Of a DNA stretch of 64,000 nt, positions 3,914 to 7,566 are shown in pieces. The stretch covers positions 124,001-188,000 of the forward strand of contig NZ_JAMXBE010000008.1 in the NCBI RefSeq assembly GCF_024704835.1, written 5' to 3'. Origin of the DNA: Parapedobacter tibetensis (GTDB lineage: Bacteria; Bacteroidota; Bacteroidia; Sphingobacteriales; Sphingobacteriaceae). The notes below the pieces were generated by a model that was not told the DNA's origin, did not search any database, and saw only the letters and a list, made by a program, of their open reading frames with translations. Both the position numbers and the translations under genes were made by a program. Each line of letters opens with the position of its first letter. The first letter of the stretch is position 1.

Positions 3914-5299
3914 ATGAATTACGACATCATTGTTATCGGGAGCGGACCGGGTGGTTATGTAGCTGCCATTAGGGCGTCCCAACTTGGATTTAAAACAGCC
4001 ATCGTAGAGCGTGAATCCCTCGGTGGCATTTGCCTCAATTGGGGATGTATTCCCACCAAGGCCTTACTCAAGAGTGCCCAAGTATTTGAGTACCTCAACC
4101 ATGCTGAAGACTACGGTATCAAGGTCAAAGGTGGCGAGGCCAACTTCGAAGCTATCATCAAACGTAGCCGTGGAGTAGCCGATGGCATGAGCAAAGGCAT
4201 CCAATTTCTGATGAAAAAAAACAAGATTGATGTAATCATGGGTGCCGCCAAAATTAAGAAAGGTGGCAAAATAGAAGTAAATACTGACGGTTCCACTAAA
4301 GAATATACCGCCAAACATACCATTTTAGCCACCGGTGCTCGTTCGCGTGAGCTACCCAATTTGAAGCAGGACGGCAAAAAAATCATCGGCTACCGCCAGG
4401 CCATGAACCTGCAAAAACAACCCGAGTCGCTTGTTGTGGTCGGGTCGGGGGCTATCGGGGTCGAATTTGCCTATTTCTATAATGCCATCGGCACCAAAGT
4501 CACCGTCGTAGAATATCTTGATCGCATTGTCCCCGTTGAGGATGAAGAGATTTCTAAACAATTGGAACGCAGCCTCAAAAAAGCAGGCATCAGCATCCTT
4601 ACCAATGCAGAAGTGCAATCCGTGGATACCTCCGGCAAATTGAGTAAGGTGCAAATCAAAACGGCTAAGGGTACGGAAACCATTGAAGCGGAGACCGTGC
4701 TTTCTGCAGTTGGGATTACCCCAAACATTGAGAACCTCGGTTTGGAGGAAGTGGGCGTCAAAACAGATAAGGGTCGGGTATTGGTAGACGATTTTTACAA
4801 AACTAATATAGATGGCGTATATGCCATTGGAGACCTTGTCAAAGGTCAGGCTTTGGCGCATGTGGCGTCTGCCGAAGGCATCACCTGTATAGAGAAAATA
4901 AAGGGGCATGATGTATCGCCCATCGATTACAACAACATACCTGGCTGCACCTATTGCTCACCCGAAATCGCCTCCGTAGGCTATACCGAGAAAGCAGCAA
5001 AAGAAGCCGGTTTTGAAATCAAAGTGGGTAAATTTCCTTTTTCCGCATCAGGCAAAGCCAGTGCTGCGGGGGCTAAGGATGGTTTCGTGAAAGTTATTTT
5101 CGATGCCAAGTATGGTGAATTGCTCGGTGCCCATATGATTGGTGCCAATGTCACCGAGATGATTGCAGAAGTGGTGGTGGCACGTAAATTGGAAACCACC
5201 GGTCATGAAGTCATCAAGGCCGTCCATCCCCACCCTACCATGAGTGAAGCCATCATGGAAGCCGCGGCGGATGCCTACGGTGAAGTGATACACCTATAG
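3914..5299 (+). CDS. lpdA: Dihydrolipoyl dehydrogenase (E3), paralogue 2
   Basis: Second complete E3 flavoprotein (461 aa): FAD motif GSGPGGY (9-15), redox Cys40/Cys45 in CLNWGC, NAD motif VVGSGAIGVEFAYF, VYAIGDLVKGQALAH, and C-terminal HPHPTMSEA with the catalytic His/Glu. The W in the redox loop and short N-terminus resemble the E3 of pyruvate or branched-chain dehydrogenase complexes, while the upstream paralogue resembles the 2-oxoglutarate type. That assignment is an inference. It has its own upstream region and terminator, so it is probably monocistronic. Confidence 0.95.
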   Translation: MNYDIIVIGSGPGGYVAAIRASQLGFKTAIVERESLGGICLNWGCIPTKALLKSAQVFEYLNHAEDYGIKVKGGEANFEAIIKRSRGVADGMSKGIQFLMKKNKIDVIMGAAKIKKGGKIEVNTDGSTKEYTAKHTILATGARSRELPNLKQDGKKIIGYRQAMNLQKQPESLVVVGSGAIGVEFAYFYNAIGTKVTVVEYLDRIVPVEDEEISKQLERSLKKAGISILTNAEVQSVDTSGKLSKVQIKTAKGTETIEAETVLSAVGITPNIENLGLEEVGVKTDKGRVLVDDFYKTNIDGVYAIGDLVKGQALAHVASAEGITCIEKIKGHDVSPIDYNNIPGCTYCSPEIASVGYTEKAAKEAGFEIKVGKFPFSASGKASAAGAKDGFVKVIFDAKYGELLGAHMIGANVTEMIAEVVVARKLETTGHEVIKAVHPHPTMSEAIMEAAADAYGEVIHL

Positions 5300-5310
5300 T
5301 CAGCCATACA

Positions 5311-5348
5311 AACCTGACAAGTTTTTGGAACCTGTCAGGTTTTTTTTC
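5311..5348 (+). terminator. Terminator after second lpd gene
   Basis: Perfect stem AACCTGACA / TGTCAGGTT with a 13-base loop, followed by eight T residues. Confidence 0.9.
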
Positions 5349-5408
5349 TTAACACAAATGTAACAACCAAAAAACCAATGGATTATTTTCCTAAGCCAAA
5401 ACTATTAT

Positions 5409-5416
5409 TATATTTG
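5409..5416 (+). promoter_or_regulatory. Probable -7 element of the actin-like gene
   Basis: TATATTTG fits TAnnTTTG, 24 bases before the start codon. The -33 position holds TTT rather than TTG. Together with the terminator just upstream, this makes the actin-like gene an independent transcription unit. Confidence 0.5.
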
Positions 5417-5439
5417 TACATCACCACCCCAATAGACTG

Positions 5440-6516
5440 ATGAAGACAAAATATACAAGCATCCCAAGCGTCATCGAAAGGCATAACAAACCACTCGTAC
5501 AGCTTACTTCTTCCTTAGATAAACGCATTCAGCTATTTGAGGCTGGTTCAGGCTTCCTCGTAGGTGAATTAGCGTTGACCCAAGGGCATGCTCCATACCG
5601 CAACATCAATAGTTCTCCCGTTGATTTGGACTACCAATTATTGGCCAAGGCCGGTTTGTTATTAGCCACCGAAGCCAAATCTGGTGAGTTGGTGATTACT
5701 ACGGGGTTTCCATCTGCAGTATACGAATTGTTTAAGCAGCAAGCAGAAGAGTTTTTCTCCATACGCGATATCATCATTGAGTACAATGAAGACACGGTAA
5801 ATGGCGGCGGGCGTGGCCGCGTCCAGCTAACCATTTCACATCTGGAAGTGATGTCCGAAATCATGGGGTGCATCAATGCCATTCGCAAAGGTCCGCTAGC
5901 AGATGAAGGTAATTTCTTCGTCGTGAGTTTAGGTTACGGCACCTGTGAAACCGCATTAAGTACAGCGGAGGGGCCTGTAGCCAGAACCTGTGTAAGCGTT
6001 CCAGGACTTAGGCGCTCGGTAAATACCCTCTATGACGAGTTGAGTGCGAGCTATTACCTGTCTATGAAAAACGAGCACATGATTAATCAAAGTTTCCAGC
6101 GTGGTGATATCGTTATCGGCCGAAAACGAATGAATCTGTTGAATGCCAGAAGCAACCATTTGGCAAGTTATTATGACGAAGTGATATCTCCCGCCATGCG
6201 GAAGGCCTTTACGGATACAGATTTTGAGAAAGCCAACCGCTTGTATTTAGTGGGTGGGGGGGCGCTGTATCCTGAATTGGTGAGCCATTTCCAACGCGAA
6301 TTCGAAGGCGTACTTGATGTCATCGTGCCGGAAGGTGCAGATAATTATGCATCCATGGGCTATTTCTTGCGCTCGGCCCTATGGTGCGGTCCGAACCACA
6401 TCGAGCGGGCCGTAGGCCTTGATATTGGCAATGCCTATACCGTTATCTCTACCCCTTGGGCGGAAACCAAACAGAAAAAGGAAAAAATCGTCGAATCGGA
6501 ATTTCTGGAGGGATAA
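5440..6516 (+). CDS. ParM/actin-like ATPase with rearranged (apparently circularly permuted) motifs
   Basis: 358 aa, cytoplasmic. Blocks in order follow the ParM/StbA/Alp actin family but begin after its usual first strand: SIPSVIER (7-14), FLVGELALTQG (39-49), DYQLLAKAGLLLA (64-76), VITTGFP (85-91), a phosphate-2-like block FFVVSLGYGTCET (159-171), adenosine block LYLVGGGALYPEL (268-280) and VPEGADNYASMGYFL (296-310). The phosphate-1 motif that should open the protein, VGLDIGNAYT with catalytic Asp328, instead lies at 325-334 near the C-terminus. A charged 18-residue tail follows. The phosphate-2 Asp is replaced by Ser163. No ParR/centromere-like partner or plasmid genes are nearby; it is a single gene with its own promoter, convergent with a LacI regulator. 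Family assignment is from motifs; polymerisation and function are unknown. Confidence 0.7.
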   Translation: MKTKYTSIPSVIERHNKPLVQLTSSLDKRIQLFEAGSGFLVGELALTQGHAPYRNINSSPVDLDYQLLAKAGLLLATEAKSGELVITTGFPSAVYELFKQQAEEFFSIRDIIIEYNEDTVNGGGRGRVQLTISHLEVMSEIMGCINAIRKGPLADEGNFFVVSLGYGTCETALSTAEGPVARTCVSVPGLRRSVNTLYDELSASYYLSMKNEHMINQSFQRGDIVIGRKRMNLLNARSNHLASYYDEVISPAMRKAFTDTDFEKANRLYLVGGGALYPELVSHFQREFEGVLDVIVPEGADNYASMGYFLRSALWCGPNHIERAVGLDIGNAYTVISTPWAETKQKKEKIVESEFLEG

Positions 6517-6519
6517 TAC

Positions 6520-7566
6520 CTATCCTTGGTTAATCAAACGCGATTTGAAGACCACTTTCGCAGGCTTCGGGCTCTCTTCGGTATCAATTAGTTCAAAAAG
6601 CAACTCTGCCGCCTTCTTCCCTTGCTTTCCTGGGAATTGTTCAATAGAAGCCATCGGCGGGTTTTCCATATATTTCCATAATGGATAGTTAGCGTAACTG
6701 ATGAAATGGAGATCCTGGTTGAGTGCCAGACCTTTTTGGCGTACGGTTTTCATCACATCCAATGCCACATAATCGTTGAATGAAACCACGGCTGAGGGGC
6801 GGTCGTAGAGGGATAACAACTGCAGAATAGCAGCCTCATTACCATCTTGCGTAAGGTCCGTATTCACAATATATTCTTCCTTGAAGGCAATTTTCTGCCT
6901 TTTCAATCCTTTAATATAGGCTTTCTTACGTTCGACGCTGGCAGGCAATGCTGTTGGTCCGTTAATCAAGGATATAGCATTATGCCCACAAGAGACAAAG
7001 ACGTCTATGGCTTCCAGCATTCCCGTTTCCAGATCGCTCACTACCTTGTTGATATTCTCCAAATCAGGCACACAGTCAAAAAAAACGATGGGAATGCCCG
7101 CACTTTCCAACAGGTCAATGAATCCATAGTTCTGCGTATTTTTCCCAATCGACATCAGGATGCCGTCTACCCGATGTGTCTTCAGTGTTTGCAATATCCG
7201 TAGTTCGCGGTCAGCATCGTCGAGCGATTGGCCCATGATTACGGTGTAGTTCTTTGAACTCGCTACATTTTCAATTTCGCTGATGGCTGCTGAAAAAAAA
7301 GGTTCAGATAAGCTAGGCAGCACCACACCTATGGTGAATGTTTTGCGTTGCTTAAAGAAAATAGCGGTTTGATTGGGTTCATAGTTCAACTCCTTTGCAA
7401 CCTTCTTCACACGCATTGTCGTTACCAAGCCTATACTGGGATGGTCGTTCAGTGCTCTGGAAACGGTGGAAGGTGAAATCTTTAACCGTTTCGCAATTTC
7501 CTTTATTGTTGCAGGTTTGCCTTCCTTCATAAGCTGTTCAATATTAATGGCCAGATCCGGCATCAA
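6520..7566 (-). CDS. LacI-family transcriptional regulator
   Basis: DNA-binding repressor or activator responding to a sugar-like ligand. N-terminal HTH near residues 18-65 (PATIKEIAKRLKISPSTVSRAL, then the hinge KVAKELNYEPN), followed by a periplasmic-binding-protein-like sensor domain (IGVVLPSLSEPFFSAAISEIE, DGILMSIGK, PIVFFDCVP, SAVVSFNDYVALDVM). An extension of about 16 residues precedes the HTH. A start at the second Met is also possible. It converges with the actin-like gene with 3 bases between stops. No sugar genes adjoin it, so its regulon is unknown. Confidence 0.93.
   Translation of the reverse strand: MMPDLAINIEQLMKEGKPATIKEIAKRLKISPSTVSRALNDHPSIGLVTTMRVKKVAKELNYEPNQTAIFFKQRKTFTIGVVLPSLSEPFFSAAISEIENVASSKNYTVIMGQSLDDADRELRILQTLKTHRVDGILMSIGKNTQNYGFIDLLESAGIPIVFFDCVPDLENINKVVSDLETGMLEAIDVFVSCGHNAISLINGPTALPASVERKKAYIKGLKRQKIAFKEEYIVNTDLTQDGNEAAILQLLSLYDRPSAVVSFNDYVALDVMKTVRQKGLALNQDLHFISYANYPLWKYMENPPMASIEQFPGKQGKKAAELLFELIDTEESPKPAKVVFKSRLINQG

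Follow-up and report, generated by a model that had tools for sequence, protein, structure and literature searches.

The window analysed here, a 64,000-nucleotide stretch of the genome of Parapedobacter tibetensis, holds a gene for an actin-like protein in which the motif that usually opens the chain is found close to its end. The locus thus raises the question whether the gene is a damaged or misread copy or whether it encodes a circularly permuted member of the actin superfamily, and what such a protein might do in the cell.

An actin-like protein with its first hairpin at the C-terminus

The open reading frame runs from ATG to TAA on the forward strand (5440-6516) and encodes 358 amino acids. 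The initial annotation had noted that the sequence VGLDIGNAYT, the phosphate-1 hairpin, is out of its usual N-terminal place, and both the translation and the Pfam match bear this out: it occupies residues 325-334 (nt 6412-6441) and is absent from the N-terminus of the protein as well as from the in-frame upstream sequence. The features recognized in the protein are the following (evidence between brackets):

5440..6516, forward: permuted actin-like protein of 358 aa (ORF, Pfam, structure model)
5452..5859, forward: stretch matching ALP_N (profile 18-145), residues 5-140; the new N-terminus starts at strand S3 (Pfam; strand 3-9 of the model)
5857..5859, forward: invariant Glu140, 57/57 (alignment columns)
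5926..5949, forward: phosphate-2 motif SLGYGTCE, residues 163-170 (aligned to HSP70 DLGGGTFD)
6241..6270, forward: adenosine motif LYLVGGGALY, residues 268-277, with Gly272-Gly273 invariant (alignment)
6409..6456, forward: displaced phosphate-1 beta hairpin S1-S2, residues 324-339 (strands, homologues, rotation, shifted matches)
6466..6513, forward: disordered C-terminal tail, residues 343-358, which differs among homologues (pLDDT < 50)

The Pfam domain ALP_N matched residues 5-140 with 31.2 bits (cut-off 26.3), and the N-terminal side of the protein has no counterpart of the first strands of this model. That the match starts at profile position 18 agrees with the earlier remark that the protein begins where a normal family member would continue. 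The domain MreB-like_C scored 16.2 bits, which is below its cut-off of 27.8, and no Pfam match to MreB_Mbl was obtained. The break had initially been placed inside the first beta hairpin, and this had to be corrected: the strands predicted in the structure model (residues 3-9 and the hairpin 324-329/333-339) put it in the loop between S2 and S3, which implies that the entire S1-S2 hairpin was relocated.

The displaced hairpin is conserved and its return restores the normal profile match

A search for homologues yielded 57 distinct full-length proteins, found within Parapedobacter, other Sphingobacteriaceae and other families of the Bacteroidota, and the order of elements was the same throughout. 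The phosphate-1 motif starts at residues 319-326 in 57/57, with G326, D328, G330 and N331 invariant at this C-terminal site; none of the 57 carries such a motif, additional or otherwise, near the N-terminus. Since ordinary members of the Actin/ParM (ALP) family have the phosphate-1 DxG on their first N-terminal hairpin and the motif is here invariant and C-terminal, we classify the protein as a permuted variant and not as an ordinary ALP member.

The relation to the canonical order was evaluated by moving the hairpin in silico to the N-terminus of four proteins and rescoring them with ALP_N. The match was extended to profile position 1 in all four (from 18-145 to 1-145 for the window protein) and the score of the window protein rose from 31.2 to 40.0 bits. 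Of the other three, one had no match before the move and 45.1 bits after it, and the remaining two improved from 40.7 to 52.3 bits and from 50.6 to 58.8 bits, a gain of 8-12 bits wherever ALP_N had already matched. The reverse comparison, of canonical proteins with the native profile of the permuted family, gave a circularly shifted order: residues 4-30, 173-258 and 323-380 of SSB1/HSP70 correspond to profile positions 313-339, 131-214 and 251-307, matches that are each weak singly and informative in their shifted order. A ParM encoded on a Thermoanaerobacterium plasmid aligned its VGLDCGNS (residues 4-11) to the profile from position 322 onward and its residues 60-341 to positions 35-305, and reached a stronger overall score, of 60.8 bits with the native and 66.0 bits with the rotated profile.

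An N-terminal truncation, misassembly or frameshift combined with a fortuitous C-terminal motif could be invoked, and the missing N-terminal phosphate-1 motif is its sole support. We regard this as practically ruled out: 57 intact homologues share the order, the upstream frames are free of the motif and rotation restores the match. The conservation in 57/57 and the recovery of the full ALP_N match likewise exclude a chance origin of the C-terminal motif. The circular permutation proposed in the initial annotation is therefore supported by the conserved order, the rotation, the shifted HSP70 and ParM matches and two actin-fold models (see below). The window protein belongs, with near certainty, to the actin-like (ParM/ALP) superfamily as a natural circular permutant, of a kind conserved in Bacteroidota. 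The computations show that a short linker connects the former N- and C-termini and that new termini were opened between S2 and S3.

Predicted structures and the nucleotide-binding site

The modelling that had been proposed as a check, with AlphaFold and Foldseek, gave an actin fold of the ParM/Ta0583 type (Z 26-28) for two family members. The model of the window protein (9 sequences; pLDDT 76, pTM 0.78) had its best Foldseek match with Ta0583 (E 3e-13) and aligned with Dh-cParM1 with a Z-score of 26.4 (model 2-322 to chain 23-364); it also matched pCBH ParM and CorM. The model of a homologue from the GTDB family denoted f50 (38 sequences) had a block pLDDT of mostly 95-98 over residues 1-330 and a Z-score of 27.9 with Dh-cParM1. 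In both cases residue 1 or 2 of the model aligns to about residue 18-23 of the ParM and Ta0583 chains, which is just past their first hairpin (residue 60-61 in the chain of CorM), and the protein's own hairpin comes after the last aligned helix. Strand assignment, alignment and sequence together indicate that residues 324-339 probably occupy the phosphate-1 position.

The location of the hairpin at the extreme C-terminus, after a short linker, would also be compatible with its insertion into the next subunit, resulting in filaments that resemble donor-strand polymers, and the sequence cannot separate a cis from a trans arrangement. We consider such strand exchange unlikely, as the monomer model is confident for linker and hairpin in cis (block pLDDT about 96, 95 and 88) and the linker comprises just about 4-8 residues.

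The residues expected around a bound nucleotide are largely retained. Glu140, Gly165, Gly167, Glu170, Gly272 and Gly273 are invariant in 57/57 sequences of the alignment and residue 168 is Thr or Ser throughout. The protein thus has the adenosine GG (G272, G273) and the catalytic-position Glu (E140) of the ALP family; the position of Glu140 is that of the catalytic Glu in ATPases of the ParM/DnaK type. The Asp that characterizes the ALP phosphate-2 motif is lacking: its position is taken by Ser in 54/57 homologues, with the glycines of the motif kept. This replacement makes ATPase activity uncertain and hydrolysis may be weak or absent; judged from these residues, nucleotide binding is probably kept and hydrolysis perhaps altered.

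Genomic setting and distribution

The features surrounding the gene are:

3914..5299, forward: dihydrolipoamide-dehydrogenase-like gene (lpd), an upstream neighbour and not a partner (ORF, Pfam)
5310..5342, forward: 14-nt inverted repeat followed by a T run (repeat search; not listed by the terminator scan)
5409..5416, forward: TATATTTG, a Bacteroidota-type -7 element, suggestive only (also upstream in two relatives)
6520..7566, reverse: LacI-family regulator, downstream and convergent; a neighbour conserved only within the genus (ORF, Pfam, neighbourhoods)

The repeat at 5310-5342 is likely the terminator of lpd, so that the permuted gene looks like a transcription unit of its own; the frequency of TATATTTG in the window is no greater than expected by chance. 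With lpd and the LacI-type gene as its flanks the gene has no ParR-like neighbour, and no parC-type repeat array was detected within 5000-7000.

Homologues were present in 32/399 genomes of the taxonomic family of the window genome. The family profile recovered them in 24/395 genomes of a phylum-wide sample and in 6/395 of a class-level sample (counting the window's own and one discarded match). The two samples overlap in part, and in neither did this search find close relatives with the normal strand order. A weak match in genome G740 was discarded, the frame being permease-like by eye. Within the genus the gene is patchy (5/9 genomes, the window's included), which suggests an accessory role. 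In a maximum-likelihood tree the window protein falls, with full support, in a clade of ten members. Two Parapedobacter genomes hold both this type and the bactofilin-linked type described below. The window copy appears to be an unlinked paralogue that represents a paralogous subtype.

Outside the Bacteroidota, plasmids, phages and viral contigs were searched. The window protein had no match among the plasmids and phages and the family profile none among the viral contigs; a phage or plasmid origin of the window protein was rejected on this basis. For two homologues only distant matches were obtained, to ParM/StbA and PRTRC protein D, and the phage partition family phrog_691 is another named sequence relative. 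These relatives could point to a permuted ParM-type motor for DNA partition. We hold that to be very improbable, given that the window lacks both a ParR-like neighbour and a centromere-like repeat array, that the window protein itself has no plasmid or phage match, that the matches of its relatives are distant and that in relatives the gene adjoins a bactofilin gene.

Apparent partner genes with aromatic C-termini

The gene had been described as standing alone without a partner, which holds for the subclade of the window protein and a few others; most relatives adjoin a gene for an aromatic-tailed bactofilin or receiver protein. A bactofilin gene lies directly downstream of 27/57 distinct permuted actins, distributed over seven GTDB families (f1, f15, f83, f88, f90, f101 and f102), and in the f102 genomes both actin paralogues are linked in this way. 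All 27 linked bactofilins have an aromatic motif at their very C-terminus (W/WW/WY in 24 and LLF/LIF/LFF in 3, taking L099 for one bactofilin with an open end), usually after a long tail of low-complexity appearance, as compared to 0/32 among the other bactofilins of the genomes searched.

Seven actins (subgroup C) are encoded 23-37 nt downstream of a gene whose product ends in RWW, and a receiver domain was recognized in each of the three such products examined in full (Pfam on one). At the loci L085, L086 and L087 the receiver protein reads VITEMHM, with Glu in place of the phosphorylated Asp, and the partner in subgroup C may therefore be a pseudo-receiver. On the 3' side of the actin these three loci share four conserved genes, which by eye encode a membrane protein and glycosyltransferase-like, TPR-like and epimerase-like proteins; the run suggests a link with envelope polysaccharide. 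Three f50 actins (L046, L047, L048) have a low-complexity tail of about 100 residues of their own, which ends in KFLKTGMW or KFLISGTW and thus in a final W.

An adjacent aromatic-tailed partner was therefore found for 34/57 members and a further 3 bear the tail on the actin itself. Seventeen actins are without an aromatic-tailed neighbour: the ten of the window clade, three of f85 and four of f90. Three f83 members are followed by a TPR-like gene and, two genes away, an untailed bactofilin, and preceded by an M23-like peptidase gene. The window copy has no adjacent gene for an aromatic-tailed partner; the single bactofilin of its genome (L114, G000:C11:24415-24702) directly follows an ORF that by eye encodes an M23-type peptidase, and its end is not aromatic. 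A canonical MreB is encoded separately in 9/9 genomes tested, in the window genome at G000:C45.

Genome context thus shows that in most lineages the actin family travels with an adaptor bearing a conserved aromatic C-terminus, and the recurrence of such tagged partners suggests a cytoskeletal system for which no description was found.

A possible tethered cytoskeletal element

We propose that the permuted actin, encoded on the chromosome, binds nucleotide and acts as a cytoskeletal switch or filament that is held on bactofilin scaffolds through its binding to the C-terminal aromatic peptide. The gene neighbourhoods show the adaptor to be mostly a bactofilin and in some cases a receiver-domain protein, whereas one lineage has the tail fused to the actin itself; the role would lie in cell shape or the positioning of envelope components and not in plasmid partition. 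That the family works as a cytoskeletal switch or filament tethered to a bactofilin or other adaptor is moderately likely, judging from gene neighbourhoods and protein ends. The explanation as a whole, from permuted actin and aromatic-tailed adaptor to tethered element, seems to us somewhat better than an even bet. It may be extended to the whole phylum, as a cytoskeleton of two components with a permuted actin-fold NTPase that would use the aromatic peptide to dock on polymers of bactofilin or on receiver adaptors, and with partners that are exchanged while the tag stays. This wider reading could equally well turn out right or wrong. Against the proposal speak the Ser at the phosphate-2 Asp position and the members that have no aromatic-tailed neighbour, and against tethering in particular that the W-ending tail of the f50 homologue is not docked in its model (tail pLDDT about 40).

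The protein could also be a nucleotide-binding switch that forms no polymers, in which case the actin fold would serve as an adaptor recognizing the aromatic tails of bactofilins or receiver proteins. The loss of the phosphate-2 Asp in 54/57 and the conserved aromatic C-termini encoded next door fit this alternative, and actin folds that bind peptides exist. PilM is an actin-fold protein that binds a peptide of its partner PilN, and ParM was found with the C-terminal peptide of ParR among the Foldseek matches (4a62). The closest folds include the filament formers pCBH ParM and CorM, however, and we rate this alternative as possible and rather less than probable.

Relation to known systems

A permuted actin-like protein was unknown to the initial annotation, and we too found no published description of one in the open-access literature other than preprints. 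Ta0583, for which we know of no bactofilin association, resembles the window protein in fold and size and gave the best Foldseek E-value for its model. It is archaeal (2FSJ) and has the normal strand order. The ParM/ALP proteins (Dh-cParM1, 8X1I; pCBH ParM, 6IXW/6IZR; ALP_N) share the fold, the phosphate-1 sequence, the adenosine motif and an ALP_N score above the cut-off, whereas the window protein is permuted, has Ser for the phosphate-2 Asp and lacks a ParR neighbour.

Two cyanobacterial systems likewise consist of a chromosomal ParM-derived actin and an adjacent partner gene: FcmB-FcmC, of which FcmB acts in cell shape in filamentous cyanobacteria (PMC12645912), and CorM-CorR (PDB 9RMI), of which CorM is a close fold match. 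Both differ in having the normal order and a partner annotated as ParR-like, not as a bactofilin. On the bactofilin side, the C-terminal extension of BacP is reported to recruit PadC in Myxococcus (PMC5703909), a case in which a long bactofilin tail recruits a nucleotide-dependent system, although the NTPase is there ParA, via PadC, and not an actin. Pairs of a bactofilin and an adjoining M23 peptidase are known as well, such as BacA-LmdC (PMC10945521). A terminal aromatic motif is not reported in the accessible portions of these two papers.

If the actin fold is permuted in nature, the chain position of its first hairpin would not be essential to actin-like proteins, and the permuted actin makes a test case for the constraints that the termini place on nucleotide cycling and on the assembly of filaments. 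The association with aromatic tails would join two cytoskeletal systems, the actin-like proteins and the bactofilins, in one gene module.
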